A DNA stretch of 35,233 bases from Halieaceae bacterium (GTDB lineage: Bacteria > Pseudomonadota > Gammaproteobacteria > Pseudomonadales > Halieaceae), in the NCBI GenBank assembly GCA_902520195.1, contig CABYND010000018.1, positions 1 to 35,233 on the forward strand. Reading direction: 5' to 3'. A program made the position numbers and the translations under genes. Below are positions 5,295 to 28,507 of the stretch, in pieces. The notes under the pieces are model-generated. The model did no database searches. It was not told where the DNA came from and saw only the letters and a program-made list of their open reading frames with translations. Numbering within the stretch: position 1 is the first letter of the stretch; the number at the start of each line of letters is the position of its first letter.

Positions 5295-6422
5295 CTAGTA
5301 TCCGGTCAGCTCCAAATAGCCCACACCCTGGTGGCTGCCGTTCACTGCGACAGGCCCTTCCCAGTAAGGAAACGCTGTTGCAAGCCAGCTGTGGGGTCGA
5401 TCCGTCGTCACTGAGATATCAATGCCGAGCTTGGGTACCCGGACGCGCCAATCGAGTGGTATGTCCTTAATACTGCTCTCGGGCCTGTCGCCTGCAAGGC
5501 TTGGAATCGGCAGGCGAGTTTCGCTCTGCGGAATCATTGTTACATCCCCAACCTCCAACACCGTAACCTCACCAGACCCACTCACCCAACTGCCGCTTAT
5601 GTAGTGCTCCCCCGAATCATGGCGCAGCTGGTACACCATCAGAGCACTGCCGTCACTTAAGTGCAGCGACACCCAATCCCAGCCGGCTTGATTGTCTGCC
5701 AATGGTTGTGAGCTCCACTCGCGGTCTAACCAGCCTTGGCCAGTCACTTCGACGGGCTCATCATGAGTCCAGATGGTGCCGGCGATTTCGATAAAAGGTT
5801 GACTGTAGTAATAACTCGCTTGGCCGAGGTCACTCTTTTGACTGAAGCCGCCCTTGCCTTGCAATACCCATTTGTCGGACGCCTCCAGCGTCAACTGAAA
5901 GCGATGAGTATTGGTGCTGGCTGTCAGCACTCCTGGAAAAGGGGCCGGTGAATTAGATCGCCAAAGCCAATCATCCATCCAAGCCTCAAACGTGTTTTTC
6001 TGCGTCACGGAAACTCCCGCTTGCGCTACGCCGCCCCGCGCAAATCGCTGTGCAAACTCAAAGCCAAACGGCGCAGAGATCGCTGTATGTGCCATCCAAG
6101 TTTGATTCGACTGCCAGCCACCTAGGTTTGGCGCCGGGCTCATCGCCTGCCGAAATAACGTCCAGTGAATGCCGTAATCCTGACCGTCGTTACCTGTCAG
6201 ATTCGCAGTGAGGTACCACCACTCAATTTTAAAACGTTCATGCGGGTAATGATCCTGCGGAAAAAGAAATGCCCGACCCGGTGCAACCTGAGCGAAGCCC
6301 TCTCCCGATTGACGCAACAGCTGATAGGGGTCTTGTGCTGGAGCAAGTTCGCTTGTGGCCCCGAAGATCAATACAAGCGAAAGGAACAGCGATCTGCGCA
6401 ATTTAGTGTGGTTCAGCATCAT
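5295..6422 (-). CDS. AttH/CrtC-like lipocalin-domain protein, exported
   Basis: Protein of the AttH / hydroxyneurosporene synthase-like (CrtC, lipocalin-type) family; in Att systems this is the secreted or periplasmic partner of an ABC transporter, with no settled biochemical role. The 375-residue product begins with a basic n-region and hydrophobic segment (SLFLSLVLIFGATSE), then a likely signal peptidase site near APAQ. The family hallmark follows: FPQDHYPHERFKIEWWYLT at about 54-72 and the YGIHWTLFRQ block, with GWLDREWSSQPL in the second half. Its ATG overlaps the permease stop in an ATGA, so the two are translationally coupled. It is last in the three-gene operon. Carotenoid hydratase activity (CrtC proper) is possible by fold, but the linkage to ATPase and permease favours AttH. 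Confidence 0.85.
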   Translation of the reverse strand: MMLNHTKLRRSLFLSLVLIFGATSELAPAQDPYQLLRQSGEGFAQVAPGRAFLFPQDHYPHERFKIEWWYLTANLTGNDGQDYGIHWTLFRQAMSPAPNLGGWQSNQTWMAHTAISAPFGFEFAQRFARGGVAQAGVSVTQKNTFEAWMDDWLWRSNSPAPFPGVLTASTNTHRFQLTLEASDKWVLQGKGGFSQKSDLGQASYYYSQPFIEIAGTIWTHDEPVEVTGQGWLDREWSSQPLADNQAGWDWVSLHLSDGSALMVYQLRHDSGEHYISGSWVSGSGEVTVLEVGDVTMIPQSETRLPIPSLAGDRPESSIKDIPLDWRVRVPKLGIDISVTTDRPHSWLATAFPYWEGPVAVNGSHQGVGYLELTGY

Positions 6423-8908
6423 TCACCCGCGAGGTTCTTGAGCGCTTTATTGACCTCTACTTGCTGCCTCAGTGAGGCCAGGATAAATGCGGTCAATACC
6501 ACTGCAGCAACTACAACAAACAAAAAGGCGATTGGTTCTGGAGCGACGATCACAGGCATGGTCCACCCGAAGGAAATGACATTGATCTTATGAATGAGCA
6601 GCCAGGACAGCACGATACCTAAAGGCAATGCTAGGGCCATCGCCGCGACGGTCATAAGCACAATAGGGAATCCCGACACCATGAAAAAGCCGAACCAACT
6701 CATCCCCAAAGATCGCCACAAGGCATACTCAGGTCGCCTCAACTGATATACAGCAAGCAGTGAAGAAAAGATGGCGACGGCAGCTACCAGCAATGTCAAA
6801 GCATTCAGCGCGCGAGTGATAGCAAATGTACGATCAAAAATAGTGAGAGATAGCGCAAGCACATCACGCTGTGACACCCACTGTGTGGGCTCTAATCCGA
6901 GTTGCGACAACCCCAATTCAGCAGCTGCTCGCTGACTTTGCTCCACCCAAATGCCCCACCCCTGTGGTTTGGCGTTTGCATAAAGTTGTTCGAGGCGCCC
7001 GCTGGGCAGGTGAAGCGAGAAGTTGACGTTTCCGTAGTCGTGAAAAAAGCCGACCACCTCAAACGGTCTAATACCCAGGTCGGTCTCTAATTCAAGTGTA
7101 TCGCCAACCTCGAGCCCGCCGAGGTATCTCAACTGCTCGTTGGCGAATACACGATCAACACCAACGCCGCCAAGTAACCAGCGCGCAAAAGCCTCGGGGT
7201 CACCATCAACAATATCATCGGGGCCAAAGTCAGGCGCGTCGGCATCAATACCAACAACCGTGAGGGTCCTGCCCGCGAAAGACCGTTCCGCAACCAGGCG
7301 CCGATGGGCGGCTTGAATCCAAACTTGGCCCGCGAGAACTTCAGCGTCGATGACACCCGCGGTCACATAAAAATCCGCCGATAACCGTGTTTCAAGCCAG
7401 TCGGTGAGCGCTAGCCGGAAACTGCCCACCAAAGCAGTGACACCGATGCTCGCAATCAAGGTGAGCAACAAGGCCATCATCGCCAACCGCAAATGTGGAA
7501 ACTGGAGGCTCACGTCAGCAAATGCCCAACGCGCCAACCAGTGTTGTCGTGTCAACGACCTCCCCAATGCCGACACCAACACAACGACCATGGGTAGCAA
7601 CGCAACCCCAGCAAACAATACTAGTGACAGTAGAGCAAATCCCTGCACCACCGAGGAGGCTATTGGATAACAGGCGTAGGCAAGCGCCAGCAACGCTACG
7701 CCGACTCCCGCCAGCACAACATTGTGGCGCGAAAATAATGCCTCGTTGCGCGAATCGGGTTCATCAGAATGCGTTGCGCTTGCCCGCACCAATGGTAAGA
7801 CCAGCGCCAAGAGCAACCCCGCAAGCGCGAGCAGCAGCGCTTCCCAAAATAGTCCCGTGTTAAATACGGGAAGACTCGATACGGATGCTCCGTAGATATT
7901 TTGCATGGTAGCCGCCACGGCAGGCATTAACGCAGCGCTTAAAGGTTGCGCTAGGAGTGTTCCGAGTAACGCTCCAGCAACAGCCCAAAATAGTGATTCG
8001 ATTGCAATAGCCGTGAAAATCGCTGCTCTTACTGCACCCAGATCCTGTAAAACGCGCAAATTTTGTTGCCTTGCGTGCAGAGAAAAATTGACGGCGTTAA
8101 ACACAATAAAAGTGCCCACAACAAAAGACAAAAGCCCCAACGCAGTTAAGTTAGTGTGCAAACTTCCGGTCAATTGAGAGAGATCCAGCGTTTGCGACTG
8201 GTTAGATAGCGCTAAGCGATCACCAAACTGTTCAACAAATTTCTGCTGCTCGGTTTCTGTCAAAGGCGAGGTCGCTAGATAAGACACCCTGTCTGTCTCG
8301 AATAGGGATAGCGCCGCACCCATGTCGATAAAGATTTGATCGCGTTGTTGCGGCTGAGACCGGATAATCGCTGGTGGGAGCAGTTTGCCCTCGCGAAGCC
8401 GAATCTGTTGCCCTTCAGTAACCGCCAAACGTTCTGCCGTCTGAGGCGGCACCCATGCTTCGTAGGGTGGCTGCGTTAGGCGACTCCAGCCATCGCCGCC
8501 AAATGAGCCGGTGTCAACGCCACTATCGCGACCACTGTCGACGCCTGACCCAAAAGAAGTCAGTGCTAACAGGTCTGTCGCTATGATCGAGATGAGAGCT
8601 CCTTCTGCGCTCGCAAGCCGCTTCTCGATAACCGGATAGACCCGGGTGAAACCTGCTCGTCGGAGCCGAATGTAGTCAGTGATGGCGACGTTGGTGTTCA
8701 CGCGGTCAGTAATCCGCCATGGTGCTGACACACCCAAAATTTGATCAGCTTCCGCGTAGCTCGCCTTCGCGCTTGCGTTAATTTGGGCAACCGAGGTGTA
8801 AAGTCCACAGCCCAGCACCAGTCCAACTACCACAAAGAGTGCTTGCAGAGGGTTTTGACGATAAAAGGCTAGTGTTGTCGCCAGTGTAACCAGCGTAGCG
8901 CGCATCAT
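6419..8908 (-). CDS. Double FtsX-type ABC transporter permease of an Att-like system
   Basis: Inner-membrane permease of the FtsX/MacB/LolC superfamily, 829 residues. It has an N-terminal membrane anchor (about 20-45), a large periplasmic domain, and a first helix bundle near 255-380 (LGLLSFVVGTFIVFNAVNFS and following). Further hydrophobic segments occur around 400-490, then a second periplasmic domain and a C-terminal bundle from about 700 (ALNALTLLVAAVAIFSSLLA) to 815. The two FtsX-like bundles in one chain would supply both halves of a transporter, matching the two permease genes (attF, attG) described elsewhere. It overlaps the upstream ATPase and the downstream AttH-like gene by 4 bp each. 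Such permeases usually extract or move lipids and lipoproteins using mechanical energy rather than passing small solutes; the substrate here is unknown. Confidence 0.85.
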   Translation of the reverse strand: MMRATLVTLATTLAFYRQNPLQALFVVVGLVLGCGLYTSVAQINASAKASYAEADQILGVSAPWRITDRVNTNVAITDYIRLRRAGFTRVYPVIEKRLASAEGALISIIATDLLALTSFGSGVDSGRDSGVDTGSFGGDGWSRLTQPPYEAWVPPQTAERLAVTEGQQIRLREGKLLPPAIIRSQPQQRDQIFIDMGAALSLFETDRVSYLATSPLTETEQQKFVEQFGDRLALSNQSQTLDLSQLTGSLHTNLTALGLLSFVVGTFIVFNAVNFSLHARQQNLRVLQDLGAVRAAIFTAIAIESLFWAVAGALLGTLLAQPLSAALMPAVAATMQNIYGASVSSLPVFNTGLFWEALLLALAGLLLALVLPLVRASATHSDEPDSRNEALFSRHNVVLAGVGVALLALAYACYPIASSVVQGFALLSLVLFAGVALLPMVVVLVSALGRSLTRQHWLARWAFADVSLQFPHLRLAMMALLLTLIASIGVTALVGSFRLALTDWLETRLSADFYVTAGVIDAEVLAGQVWIQAAHRRLVAERSFAGRTLTVVGIDADAPDFGPDDIVDGDPEAFARWLLGGVGVDRVFANEQLRYLGGLEVGDTLELETDLGIRPFEVVGFFHDYGNVNFSLHLPSGRLEQLYANAKPQGWGIWVEQSQRAAAELGLSQLGLEPTQWVSQRDVLALSLTIFDRTFAITRALNALTLLVAAVAIFSSLLAVYQLRRPEYALWRSLGMSWFGFFMVSGFPIVLMTVAAMALALPLGIVLSWLLIHKINVISFGWTMPVIVAPEPIAFLFVVVAAVVLTAFILASLRQQVEVNKALKNLAGE

Positions 8909-24345: not shown

Positions 24346-24876
24346 TCAATCCGTGGCCAAGTATTCACCTTCTGCAATGAGCTCATCGACCAACTGTCCA
24401 ATGGTGTTGGGCGTGACCAAATGGGCGGCATACCAGGTATGCAGGCACCGAATGCGAGTCGGCTCACTGATGCCACCAATCCCCCGCTCATCGAGCGCCG
24501 CTTGCATCCCTTTCTCACTCAGCAGCTGTCGCTCAGCATCGGACAAGAAACGTAACCGCTCCTCACGGTGACGAGCATGATCATTGTGCATGGCCTTCTG
24601 CAGTGTTGTTGAGGCATCCACACGATCCTGCAATCGCGCGATACAACCGGCCGCTTCGAGTCGATCGATCCGCAGGCACAACTCCGCGCCTACCAACCAA
24701 TACAACGTGGGAAAAGGTTTTTCGTCGACGACCGAGGCCACACGAATGACCAGCGGCTCCCCGTGCGTATCCGCCACTGGGATCGCGCGCAAACCCCGGG
24801 GCTCTCGCCCGAGCAACACGGCAACGCGGGCGCGCTGATCAGCGGTGAGAGGCGTGTCGTGGTAATCGGACTGCAT
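24346..24876 (-). CDS. DUF501 domain-containing protein
   Basis: Protein of unknown function with a DUF501 domain, 176 residues from the ATG at 24876. Family features: LLGREPRGLRAIPVADTHG near the N-terminus, then the conserved PFPTLYWLVGAELCLRIDRL segment and the NDHARHREER basic-acidic helix. It ends in a helical region (WYAAHLVTPNTIGQLVDELI). No signal peptide or membrane segment is seen. A longer frame reaches 25065, but this would run antisense through the cobalamin riboswitch and is not supported. It lies 55 bp upstream of aroG on the same strand and may be cotranscribed with it. DUF501 genes in actinobacteria sit near enolase and exopolyphosphatase genes; that context is absent here. 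Confidence 0.82.
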   Translation of the reverse strand: MQSDYHDTPLTADQRARVAVLLGREPRGLRAIPVADTHGEPLVIRVASVVDEKPFPTLYWLVGAELCLRIDRLEAAGCIARLQDRVDASTTLQKAMHNDHARHREERLRFLSDAERQLLSEKGMQAALDERGIGGISEPTRIRCLHTWYAAHLVTPNTIGQLVDELIAEGEYLATD

Positions 24877-24937
24877 GGCCAAATGGTAACACCGGCGTCG
24901 ATTGACCCCGATGTCGAGTGGGAGTAAGGTTCCGCGC

Positions 24938-25059
24938 ATCAGGTGCCTGCCGGTCTCACGATCTGGGCAGGTTAAAAGGGAAGTCCGGTGAGCTTTGGCA
25001 AGTCCGGCGCTGCCCCCGCAACGGTCATCACTGAGGTGAGAGCCCGATACCTGCCTGAT
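24938..25059 (+). promoter_or_regulatory. Cobalamin (B12) riboswitch
   Basis: Adenosylcobalamin-type aptamer. The sequence runs ATCAGG as a closing strand, then the conserved GGTTAAAAGGGAAGTCCGGTG, the core GCTGCCCCCGCAACGGT, and the B12-box segment GAGCCCGATACCTGCC, closing with CCTGAT. About 137 bases separate the aptamer from the btuB ATG, room for an expression platform that blocks the ribosome binding site or terminates transcription when B12 is plentiful. It should repress the btuB-cobO-membrane protein operon. Confidence 0.95.
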
Positions 25060-25196
25060 CAACACCCATCATGTGGAGCGGAGGGCTTCCACAGGATGCG
25101 CTCGATGCCCGTGGCGGAACCTGCCATGCCGTGTCATGCATCCCCTGCCCTCGCCCCGAACGCCGCATAGTCGGCAGCAGAACTACGAGGGAAGGG

Positions 25197-27266
25197 ATGA
25201 CAATGTTCAACACTCACCGCACTCACCACGGGGTTCGTCACAGCGCCACTCACGCTCACGCCCGCAACAACCCTGGCGAGATCACCACACCGGCAGCTTC
25301 AGCATGGGAACGGCTGGTACCCTCGTCGACCGGTGTCAGTCTTAAAGCGCATTCGCGATTCAGTGGCACCACTGCATTGCGTCTGTCGCGCTCTCGTACC
25401 GGTCTTCTTCGGTCCACTGCGCTGTTGGTGTCGGCCCTGAGCGGCTCGTGCATCGCCATAGCGCAGGACTCGTCTTCCAGCGCGGCCGCGGATGTTGGCG
25501 AAGTCGAGGAAGTTGTGGTGTCATCACGAACACCCGACCTGATCGATCAAATTGGGGTCTCGGTCAGCGTGATCGATGAGGACACGATGCGATCTCTGGC
25601 TTATCCCGACCTCGCGTCACTGCTCGACACCCAACCGGGCGTTACGGTGACCATGGATGGCGGTTACGGCAAAGCGGCGGCGGTTCGAATCCGGGGTGAG
25701 GAAGGCTACCGCACACGCATCGTGCTGGACGGCATCAATATTGCTGACCCCTCCTCCCCCCAGGTCAGTCCCCGTATCGAGCATTTGGTGAGCAGCGGCT
25801 TGACCCGGGCGGAAATCCTGCGCGGCCCCCAGGGCTTGCTCTGGGGTGCGGATGCCGGTGGCGTGATTCTCATGTCGACTACCGACGCCGCGGCGGAGTC
25901 GGGATTGGGTGGTTTTTTGGAGGCCGGCAGCGACGATTTCTATCAGGGCGCCATTAACGGCGTCTTGAGCACTGATCAGCTGACCGCGTCGGCTTCGCTC
26001 TCGCAGCTGGAGACCGACGGCTTCAACGCGCGGGAGATCGACAGTGTCGACCCCGACCGGGACGGCTACGAGAACACGACTGCCCACGGAGCGCTCTCCT
26101 GGGCGATCAGTGACGTGATGTCACTTAATTTTGCGGCAACCGATATCTCTGGCGACAACGAATATGACGGTTGCTACGACACTGCGACATTTGCGTTGAT
26201 TCACGACTGTGACGATGAGTACGAGCAACAAGCCTGGCGGGGGGCGCTGCGCTACGCCTCTGCACGACACACCGTCGAGCTCAGCTATGCCTCGAGCGAC
26301 ACGGAGCGCGCCTTTTTCTCCGCCGGCGTGCTGTCCTATGAGACCGAGGGTGAAACGAATACCACGTCTCTGACCGGCGCATGGCGGCTCACTGACAACA
26401 CCCGGCTCACTTACGGCCTCGATCAAGAGGAGCAGTCGCTCTCCGATGCCAGCACCGATTGGTCCCGAGACAACACGGGTGTTTATCTGGAAGCCCAACA
26501 GCGATTTGGACGCGGCGTGATGACCGTTGGCTGGCGTCATGACGACAACGACGACTTCGGCGAGTTCGACAGTTGGCGCGTCAGTGGGCGCTACGATCTG
26601 GACGGCATGGGCGAGGGCTGGGCACTCCGCGCCGCGATCGGCACCGGTTTTCGCGCGCCGAGTCTTTACGAGATCGCTTACAATAACGGCCCCTTTGCCT
26701 ATCCACCTGCGAGCAGCGCGCCGCTCCTGGAGGAAGAATCCGAGGGCTGGGAAGTCGCAGTCTTAGGTACGCTGGGTAAGCTTGAGATCGAACTGATCTG
26801 GTTTGATCAGGAAATTGACAATGAGATCATCTTCGACCTTGCGGGTTACAGTGGCTATCTACAAACCACAGGGACCAGTTCGTCCGAAGGCCTAGAAATC
26901 ATTGCCACCCTGCCTCTGTCAGAGCGCTGGCACATCGAGGGCAATTTCACCTCGCTCGACGCCAAGCAGCAAAACGGAAATGATCGGGCCTATCGACCCG
27001 ATCAGACTGGGCAGGTGAGTGTGGTGTGGACCCGCAGTACTTTGCGCGCCAGAGTCACCGGCCGCTACACCGGGGACGCTACCGACCCCTTCATGACTTC
27101 AATTGACGACACTTTCACGCTCGACCTGAGCGCTCAATTGGATCTTTCAGAGCGTTGGGCGCTGGAAGCCAGAGTTCTTAACGTCACAGATCACGATGAC
27201 CAGCAGCTCCCGGGCTATTATGTGCCCGGCATGACCGCCTACGCCGGCGTGCGCATGAAGCTCTAG
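25197..27266 (+). CDS. btuB: TonB-dependent vitamin B12 receptor, BtuB-like
   Basis: Outer-membrane beta-barrel receptor for cobalamin, energised by TonB. From the ATG at 25197 (ribosome binding site GAGGGAAGGG) it has 689 residues, longer than E. coli BtuB (614 with signal). A TonB-box-like EEVVVSS is near 104-110, then the plug domain (VSVSVIDEDTM, LLDTQPGVTV, RIRGEEGYRTRIVLDGINI, EILRGPQGLLWGADAGGVI) and a barrel with GTGFRAPSLYEIAY. It closes at the C-terminus with AYAGVRMKL, ending in Leu rather than the usual aromatic residue. The hydrophobic signal segment (STALLVSALSGSCIAIA) comes only at about 73-89, so the n-region is unusually long and His-rich. The riboswitch directly upstream supports B12 as ligand. 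Confidence 0.92.
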   Translation: MTMFNTHRTHHGVRHSATHAHARNNPGEITTPAASAWERLVPSSTGVSLKAHSRFSGTTALRLSRSRTGLLRSTALLVSALSGSCIAIAQDSSSSAAADVGEVEEVVVSSRTPDLIDQIGVSVSVIDEDTMRSLAYPDLASLLDTQPGVTVTMDGGYGKAAAVRIRGEEGYRTRIVLDGINIADPSSPQVSPRIEHLVSSGLTRAEILRGPQGLLWGADAGGVILMSTTDAAAESGLGGFLEAGSDDFYQGAINGVLSTDQLTASASLSQLETDGFNAREIDSVDPDRDGYENTTAHGALSWAISDVMSLNFAATDISGDNEYDGCYDTATFALIHDCDDEYEQQAWRGALRYASARHTVELSYASSDTERAFFSAGVLSYETEGETNTTSLTGAWRLTDNTRLTYGLDQEEQSLSDASTDWSRDNTGVYLEAQQRFGRGVMTVGWRHDDNDDFGEFDSWRVSGRYDLDGMGEGWALRAAIGTGFRAPSLYEIAYNNGPFAYPPASSAPLLEEESEGWEVAVLGTLGKLEIELIWFDQEIDNEIIFDLAGYSGYLQTTGTSSSEGLEIIATLPLSERWHIEGNFTSLDAKQQNGNDRAYRPDQTGQVSVVWTRSTLRARVTGRYTGDATDPFMTSIDDTFTLDLSAQLDLSERWALEARVLNVTDHDDQQLPGYYVPGMTAYAGVRMKL

Positions 27267-27275
27267 GAGCCTGCC

Positions 27276-27875
27276 ATGGACCGCAACACCAAACACAACA
27301 AGGCCATGGCCAAGCAGAAGGCGGCTGTAGATAAGGGCATCGCCAAGGCTGATATCGAGCGCGGCGTATCCATTTTGCTCACCGGTGATGGCAAGGGCAA
27401 AACCAGCTCGGCCTTCGGCATGGTGATGCGGGCGCTGGGCTACGGCCAAAAGGTGGGCGTGGTGCAATTTATCAAAGGCGCGCAGGCCTCCGGCGAGGAA
27501 AACTATGTCAGAGATCACCTGCCAGGCGTCGCACTTCACCAAATGGGCACCGGGTTTACCTGGGACACACAGGACCGGGAGAGCGATATCGCCGCTGCCA
27601 AGCGGACCTGGGAACATGCCGTGGAAATGTTAAGCGACGTCAGCTACCACCTGGTCGTGCTCGACGAGCTCACCTACATGCTGGCCTTTGACTATCTTCC
27701 GGAGAGTGAGGTGATCAATGCGCTCACGGGTCGACCCGAATCCCAAAGCGTGGTGGTCACTGGTCGCGGCGGGGGTCAAGCCTTACGCGAAGCCATGGAC
27801 ACCGTGTCTGAGGTGAAGGAAATCAAGCACGCCTATCGCGCCGGTATTCGCGCCCGACAGGGCGTGGACTACTGA
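27276..27875 (+). CDS. cobO: Cob(I)yrinic acid a,c-diamide adenosyltransferase (CobO/BtuR)
   Basis: Corrinoid adenosyltransferase of the CobA/CobO/BtuR family, which moves the adenosyl group of ATP to Co(I) corrinoids to form the cofactor's Co-C bond. The 199 residues fit the family (about 196-200). The P-loop is GDGKGKT at 37-43, followed by SSAFGMVMRALGYG and VGVVQFIKG; later blocks are LVVLDELTYML (the Walker-B-like segment) and VVVTGRGGGQALREAMDTVSEV. It starts ten bases after btuB with GGAG upstream of the ATG, so it shares the riboswitch-controlled transcript. It is followed within 2 bp by the membrane protein gene. No other corrin synthesis gene is in view, so this is salvage of imported corrinoid. 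Confidence 0.94.
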   Translation: MDRNTKHNKAMAKQKAAVDKGIAKADIERGVSILLTGDGKGKTSSAFGMVMRALGYGQKVGVVQFIKGAQASGEENYVRDHLPGVALHQMGTGFTWDTQDRESDIAAAKRTWEHAVEMLSDVSYHLVVLDELTYMLAFDYLPESEVINALTGRPESQSVVVTGRGGGQALREAMDTVSEVKEIKHAYRAGIRARQGVDY

Positions 27876-27877
27876 CA

Positions 27878-28507
27878 ATGGGTGCGCACCTGGCGATCCG
27901 CCCCGCCGCCTTCATCCGCTACAAGTTTCTCAACTCGCTTTTTCTCGGACTCTCCGTTGGCGCGGTGTTTGTGCTTTACACACCCCTATCACCCGCGGTG
28001 TTCTCGGCAGGCGGCATCGGACTCGCCTTGGGCACACTGATCGTCGCCACCCAGTACCGACGCATTCTGGCGCCTGACTGGTTCTTTCGACTGTCGCTCG
28101 GGGTAGAGCTGGTCACGCTGAGTGGCGTGGTAGCGGTGCTCCTCTTCCCCCTGGAGCTCGCCCTCGCGCTGTTTATCTACATTGGCTATCAGATGACCTT
28201 CTCGCTGGGGAATTACCTAGTGCGCTGCGAAACCCTGCTAATGGTCTCGGTGGAACAGCTGCGCAAACTCGATGTGGCCAAACAGGCAGGCTATCTACTT
28301 GGCATGGGGGGGGCGTGGGCGGTGTATGCGGGTCTCGAGCACTTTGCGGCGATCGACGAGCGCGTCGAGCAGGTGGTGTCCCTGCACTGGGTGCTGGTGG
28401 TTATCGAAGTCGCGGTGGTGGTCGCCCTTTGGCGGGCCTTCAATCGGGATCAGCTAGTACTCAGCGCCCCGTTAATACGCGATGAGCAAGACGCCGCCCT
28501 CGACTAA
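27878..28507 (+). CDS. Uncharacterised six-helix inner-membrane protein in the B12 operon
   Basis: Not recognised. The 209-residue protein has about six hydrophobic segments (near 17-35, 38-57, 71-90, 91-110, 131-150 and 165-185). The N-terminal tail is short and positively charged (RPAAFIRYK) and the C-terminus polar and acidic. A single cysteine, Cys117, lies in NYLVRCETLLMV, just after the fourth helix. Its ATG comes 2 bp after the cobO stop, so it is almost certainly translated from the riboswitch-controlled transcript. A B12-related membrane role (corrinoid movement across the inner membrane, or anchoring of the adenosyltransferase) is inference. BtuM, another small six-helix B12 protein with a functional cysteine, is a possible analogue, but I see no clear sequence match. 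It overlaps the convergent aldolase gene by 4 bp. Confidence 0.8.
   Translation: MGAHLAIRPAAFIRYKFLNSLFLGLSVGAVFVLYTPLSPAVFSAGGIGLALGTLIVATQYRRILAPDWFFRLSLGVELVTLSGVVAVLLFPLELALALFIYIGYQMTFSLGNYLVRCETLLMVSVEQLRKLDVAKQAGYLLGMGGAWAVYAGLEHFAAIDERVEQVVSLHWVLVVIEVAVVVALWRAFNRDQLVLSAPLIRDEQDAALD

Follow-up and report, generated by a model that had tools for sequence, protein, structure and literature searches.

A six-helix membrane protein encoded behind cobO as a proposed solitary B12 importer in a marine genus of the Halieaceae

A small gene directly behind cobO in a cobalamin riboswitch operon of a Halieaceae bacterium encodes a six-helix inner-membrane protein, hereafter X, that stands in place of btuCDF in its genus, a marine one. 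X is proposed to be a solitary inner-membrane importer of B12 or close corrinoids that replaces BtuCDF in this genus, a reading to which a probability of just under 0.8 is assigned. The window, the whole stretch of DNA that was analysed (35,233 nucleotides), carries a first-pass annotation that tied X to B12 and named it a candidate for the inner-membrane step of btuCDF, and the exchange of the two at a single site supports this well; the interpretation as a whole is partly supported, as a special role suggested for a cysteine of X did not hold (see below). If X transports B12, uptake in the marine genus and in part of a second phylum would be explained, genomes that seemingly have no transporter could be annotated better, and a very small, sequence-unrelated B12 carrier would be gained for structural study.

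The operon of the window runs on the + strand in the order riboswitch-btuB-cobO-X. The cobalamin riboswitch aptamer (RF00174; 24924..25072, + strand) scores 65.5 bits against a gathering threshold of 31.5 (E 3.4e-14) and is followed by a BtuB-like TonB-dependent outer-membrane receptor (25206..27266, + strand; PF00593 and PF07715 above cut-off), whose listed open reading frame opens at 25071, the start at 25206 being provisional. The best NCBIfam match of this receptor is the TonB-B12 model TIGR01779 (E 5e-59), with 200 bits, which is below the 600-bit cut-off of this equivalog. The next gene encodes a CobO/BtuR ATP:corrinoid adenosyltransferase (27276..27875, + strand; PF02572, E 2.5e-59), also above cut-off for NF004637 and TIGR00708 of NCBIfam. 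The CobO stop codon lies at 27873-27875 and X (27878..28507, + strand) begins at 27878, confirming the gap of 2 bp reported earlier; its frame opens with ATG and specifies 209 amino acids with a single cysteine, Cys117. A motif scan found no + strand terminator-like site in the cobO-X interval and no promoter-like sites (shuffled mean, 1.0), while terminator-like matches totalled four against a shuffled mean of 2.7, with a + strand match at 26109-26125 within btuB. The genes from the riboswitch through btuB and cobO to X are presumably co-transcribed. Riboswitches of this class turn down their operon as a whole at high levels of coenzyme B12. On the other side of the riboswitch lies a divergent gene (24346..25065, minus strand), which as called overlaps the aptamer, and its true start is probably further in than called.

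The reading frame of X is not a product of chance, because a homologous open frame is present behind cobO in all 30 Halieaceae loci compared (L001-L010 and L026-L045) and is kept even at 36% identity; the choice of start codon is doubtful in several of them, L029 having no in-frame ATG, GTG or TTG near the expected position, and in L010 the frame is cut by the contig end. The association with btuB and cobO for which the first-pass annotation proposed a test is without exception in this set, with cobO directly 5' of X and a BtuB-like receptor 5' of cobO in 30/30. Apart from the window, 16 Halieaceae X loci were scanned for RF00174 and 15 contain it (6/7 and 9/9); the contig of the sole exception, L002, starts only a short way before its btuB match. 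Two clades of X occur inside the genus and are 36-42% identical to each other, the corresponding receptors being 35-38% and the CobO proteins 64-68% identical, such that the btuB-cobO-X unit has been kept together despite large sequence change. This constant position is also what would be seen if X were an accessory protein, either a membrane anchor or activator of CobO or a partner of the receptor, with an unrecognised transporter moving B12. The docking of CobO alone would leave the inner-membrane step unexplained, and the accessory reading is considered distinctly improbable in view of the distribution of X relative to btuCDF, presented in the following paragraphs.

Within the family, X is present in 51 of 140 genomes and is nearly confined to one genus, being found in 50 of the 57 genomes of the window's genus and in one of the 83 others (G008). 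Many genomes of the genus are incomplete (the window's own assembly is 69% complete); X occurs in all 17 that are at least 90% complete, and the seven genus genomes without X are 54-83% complete. The distribution of FecCD permeases (PF01032), over cut-off in 85 of the 140 family genomes, is close to the reverse, with 79 of 83 genomes outside the genus and six of 57 inside. X and a FecCD permease over cut-off occur together in six of the 140 genomes (six of the 51 that bear X), a weak match to FecCD, below cut-off, was obtained in another genome with X (G103), and among the 17 near-complete genus genomes a single one (G102) has a FecCD permease over cut-off.

The operons themselves show where the exchange took place. 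Thirteen loci were compared from other genera of the family, representing 11 genomes, and each of the 11 genomes possesses a riboswitch operon with cobO followed by btuC-, ABC ATPase- and btuF-like genes, at a cobO-btuC distance of about 1.5 kb in three of them; a receptor gene lies between riboswitch and cobO in 10 of the 11 (absent in L074). The other two loci fetched, L076 and L077, have neither riboswitch nor cobO. The divergent gene that borders the operon in the window flanks 27 of the 30 X loci and nine of the 11 btuCDF operons. In the three X loci without it the contig extends barely or not at all beyond btuB on the upstream side, and in the two btuCDF operons without it less than 1 kb precedes the riboswitch. 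As the same gene lies beside both versions of the operon, X and btuCDF occupy the same chromosomal site, behind cobO and under the same riboswitch. This exchange weighs against an accessory role, since X takes the place of btuCDF whereas cobO is retained with either. A single event probably underlies the exchange: in a quick tree all 31 rows of Halieaceae X fall on one side of a branch (97% SH-aLRT), and because of this clustering the genome counts are not independent trials.

A btuCDF system elsewhere in the genome, which would have accounted for uptake, was looked for in the same genomes. No riboswitch-linked or BtuB-linked ABC importer was seen in the 51 X-bearing family genomes, nor did the genus show a locus of btuC type. 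Retention of btuCDF in the six X-bearing genomes with a FecCD permease was considered and, on the evidence of the loci themselves, rejected, as their FecCD loci are without a riboswitch and the one locus tested by HMM (L060) has a heme receptor and HmuQ above cut-off. Seven FecCD loci were retrieved from the genus and from G008, none of them with a riboswitch; one belongs to an X-negative genus member (G095). Six of the seven are five-gene loci of heme type; the seventh, L065 of G102, is partial, lies at a contig end and was called heme-type by similarity. This apparent heme uptake and degradation locus, found in a few genus members (L060, 1578-6907, and its relatives L061-L064 and L066), consists of genes for a receptor, a binding protein, a permease, an ATPase and HmuQ. 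In L060 the receptor fits TIGR01786 and TIGR01785 above cut-off, the small gene fits HmuQ above cut-off, and the best match of the ATPase is a heme ATPase, below cut-off. For the permeases of L060 and L065 the highest-scoring models are those of BtuC, whose cut-offs they do not reach, and the heme-type call therefore rests on the neighbouring genes; such a score in a heme-type locus is a trap for automatic annotation.

The genus appears to need an imported corrinoid. CbiC, an enzyme of corrin synthesis, was found in none of the 57 genus genomes (control genomes, 7/14), and the importer types covered in the genus, FecCD permeases and EcfT/CbiQ, gave the FecCD loci described above and no EcfT/CbiQ (PF02361; 0/57, with the same model found in 10 of 14 control genomes). 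B12-binding domains are nevertheless present in 55 of the 57 genomes (53 over cut-off) and in all 17 of the near-complete ones, and this combination argues for a need for import. That neither a BtuC-type locus nor EcfT was seen in the genus also weighs against the accessory role, which requires another transporter. In the window's genome, the two domains of a methylmalonyl-CoA-mutase-like enzyme are encoded on separate genes, both above cut-off, with a MeaB-type GTPase just below cut-off, and another genus member (G058) possesses a full methylmalonyl-CoA mutase above cut-off. The MetH activation domain was detected in only 14 of the 57 genomes, so methionine synthesis is not a general reason for import. 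G058 also possesses, together in one locus (L184, 1038-5255), genes for a trimethylamine-methyltransferase-like protein, an MtgC-like corrinoid protein and a methyltetrahydrofolate:corrinoid methyltransferase, the last above cut-off and the first two being best matches below cut-off, a set that suggests another use of B12 in these bacteria.

In the scheme proposed here, the BtuB-like receptor would bring B12 into the periplasm, X itself would carry it across the inner membrane, and CobO would adenosylate it, such that it is trapped and supplied to B12 enzymes, among them methylmalonyl-CoA mutase. The ligand would be B12 rather than a precursor, and the energy could be supplied by trapping through adenosylation or by proton coupling through an invariant glutamate, Glu77, in the third helix. 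Relative to BtuCDF, with which it shares its position in the operon and, as proposed, its job, X would be a far simpler device, one gene without an ATPase or binding protein as opposed to a three-gene, ATP-driven system, and it does not match PF01032, the family of BtuC.

The predicted architecture of X is in favour of an importer, with six helices, both ends inside and 22 invariant columns in an alignment of 32 diverse homologues. AlphaFold2 models of the window's X and of a homologue from a Hydrogenothermaceae genome, built from 12-row alignments, both have six long helices, in agreement with the six-helix protein described earlier, at low to middling confidence (pLDDT 65.4 and 70.6; pTM 0.56 and 0.59). 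Counts of lysine and arginine predict that both termini lie inside, as do loops 2 and 4. The invariant residues include Y15, K16, N19, E77, Y101, Q105, R116, E118 and D132. Glu77 sits in helix 3, the most hydrophobic stretch of X, and from this placement might take part in handling a proton or the ligand. Conserved residues R116, E118, D132 and K135 fall in the inside loop that joins helices 4 and 5, a feature that would also suit an accessory protein in contact with CobO. The first-pass annotation had singled out Cys117, and this element of it is not upheld: the column has cysteine in eight of the 32 homologues, no other column has it in more, and 15 of the 32 contain no cysteine whatever. 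Cys117 as a cobalt ligand in the manner of BtuM was therefore rejected, the residue being unconserved.

By sequence, X belongs to no family above cut-off in Pfam or NCBIfam, with one Pfam match far below cut-off (E 1.4), no NCBIfam match at all and no match among PDB sequences. The 32 homologues scanned singly against Pfam gave 17 families with one member each (best E 0.006), and a profile of all 32 searched against PDB chains, with matches accepted at E up to 10, returned only six CusA sequences (best E 0.12). PF01032 was matched by none of the 32 and hhalign of X against 15 FecCD proteins gave 0.1%. Against 15 MFS proteins, 14 from the window's genome and one from a relative, hhalign gave a probability of 1.4% and a score of 21.8, higher than the reversed alignment (13.7) and than any of 20 controls made by local shuffling (best of these, 18.1), which is at most a hint. 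With this probability and with none of the 32 members matching an MFS Pfam family, the sequences do not support homology of X to the MFS. A description of the X family was not found among titles and abstract openings in the literature, where an earlier mention beyond these parts is possible. The most fitting description of X is that of a new family whose function is probably a known one.

The closest functional parallel is BtuM of Thiobacillus denitrificans, described in the consulted parts of its structural report as a small six-helix inner-membrane protein with both ends inside, in which an invariant cysteine (Cys80 in the solved protein) binds cobalt (PMC6072759). According to the same parts of that report, the gene for BtuM lies near btuB and the adenosyltransferase gene in genomes without an ECF module, and its authors, who pointed out this neighbouring adenosyltransferase gene, proposed facilitated diffusion (PMC6072759). 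By analogy, a facilitated-diffusion logic of the BtuM type could drive X, or X may be proton-coupled. The likeness extends to the size class (about 22 kDa), six helices, cytoplasmic ends, absence of an ECF module and btuB/btuR neighbours, and on these shared traits X might be a highly diverged BtuM or S-component, a six-helix solitary B12 carrier, which would be compatible with the importer reading. Such an origin is judged unlikely. The invariant cysteine ligand of BtuM has no counterpart in the X family, the profile of 32 homologues matched only CusA chains among PDB sequences (E up to 10), although very distant kinship with BtuM is possible, and no S-component appeared by name among the best 50 Foldseek matches of either model (of 359 and 284), where the matches listed are mostly MFS proteins and the models are weak. 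An S-component working with an ECF module would, moreover, lack its EcfT/CbiQ partner throughout the genus.

Foldseek searches of both models against the PDB gave nothing significant. For the window's X (pLDDT 65.4 model) the first match was MelB (E 0.19; query TM-score 0.59), and for the Hydrogenothermaceae X, likewise a model of low to middling confidence, it was SLC19A1 (E 0.07; query TM-score 0.31); query TM-scores among the matches listed reach 0.59 and 0.39, respectively, and NorA is also among the top matches, all non-significant. Judged by name, we take about 47 of the best 50 of 359 matches for the window's X and about 42 of the best 50 of 284 for the Hydrogenothermaceae X to be MFS proteins, again non-significant, and several of the non-MFS proteins among the matches listed are nucleotide-sugar transporters. 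The signal may partly reflect the abundance of MFS chains in the PDB. The six helices of X would equal half of an MFS carrier, and from these models a half-MFS fold is put forward as a hypothesis; X is half the usual MFS length and has no sequence-profile relation to that group. An extended and tentative version of the importer reading, which we regard as doubtful, holds that X is an MFS-like carrier of half size, two copies of whose six-helix unit would join into a 12-helix, proton-driven B12 importer in which Glu77 handles the proton. It would then be a third answer to inner-membrane B12 uptake, unrelated to BtuCDF and BtuM, that gene transfer has spread over two or three phyla.

Beyond the family, the distribution of X is patchy. 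A scan of public genomes returned 12 loci, 10 of them in records named Halieaceae, Luminiphilus or Gammaproteobacteria that are 76-93% identical to the window's X over the best segment, and the other two in a Campylobacterales MAG (52%) and a Hydrogenothermaceae MAG (47%, both best segment). Among 249 genomes across the window's phylum X was found only in the window's own genome and in none of the 248 others, and none of 48 candidate stretches in viral contigs encodes a relative. In the second phylum, that of the Campylobacterales MAG, 55 of 249 genomes have a match, 54 of them strong.

The second-phylum loci bear on whether X occurs mainly outside B12 contexts, and they place it mostly beside TonB receptors and sometimes beside CobO. 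Of the 54 genomes, 21 loci were examined (L011 and L110-L129), and in 17 a TonB receptor lies directly upstream of X on the same strand, with apparent gaps of -14 to 33 bp; in L110 the receptor is one ORF away (read by eye). CobO stands at -1 or -2 of X in four loci (L114, L116, L118 and L120), immediately upstream in one of the 21, and L116 has the order MetH-CobO-receptor-X. These four would fit an accessory protein of CobO, but the receptor is the far more constant neighbour, CobO lying within three genes in only these four and X following a receptor without CobO in that range in 14 of the 21. A strong FecCD match (E below 1e-20, counted by eye) is present in 21 of the 54 X-bearing genomes and in 151 of the 195 others, two X-bearing genomes (G607 and G617) being taken by inference as without FecCD; the contrast is only mildly supportive because FecCD proteins in this phylum include iron and heme carriers.

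The substrate is less plainly marked outside the Halieaceae. No cobalamin riboswitch was found in the 11 second-phylum X loci scanned. Of seven second-phylum receptors tested, six have the TonB-B12 model as their best match but stay below its cut-off, and for the seventh (L126) siderophore models are the best match. Neither a receptor nor CobO lies within three genes of X in L111 and L117, and neither adjoins X in the Hydrogenothermaceae locus L012, whose neighbours presumably are an ATPase, Fur and MetE from their resemblance, giving three of 22 non-Halieaceae loci without either neighbour. Such loci, and receptors that are less B12-like, would be expected if X carried another ligand, such as cobalt, a lower-ligand base or a TonB-receptor substrate such as a siderophore. 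This is very unlikely, as corrinoids are indicated both by the riboswitch and by the replacement of btuCDF, and cobalt has no evident use in corrin synthesis in a genus in which CbiC is missing.

Several other genes lie near X in the second phylum. In L117 a YcaO gene (5895-8095) lies directly before X with a 4-bp overlap and best fits the S12 methylthiotransferase accessory model, below cut-off. A gene for a DUF4139 protein lies upstream of X in L111 (1881-3317) and L114 (7332-8729), with CobO between them in L114. A cysteine-rich gene of 143-152 amino acids adjoins X or the receptor in L011 (8570-9001), L110 (5787-6218) and L122 (8365-8823) and may be another B12-linked gene; the L011 copy, the sole one tested, is weakly like PF04071 (E 4e-4, below cut-off). 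Finally, second-phylum receptors adjoining X have in common an unusual N-terminal stretch (GF..KYFSLAAI and similar), as in L116 (3896-5761), L118 (6557-8455), L121 (3670-5631), L123 (6255-8273) and L127 (6356-8344), which from its sequence looks like a special export signal.
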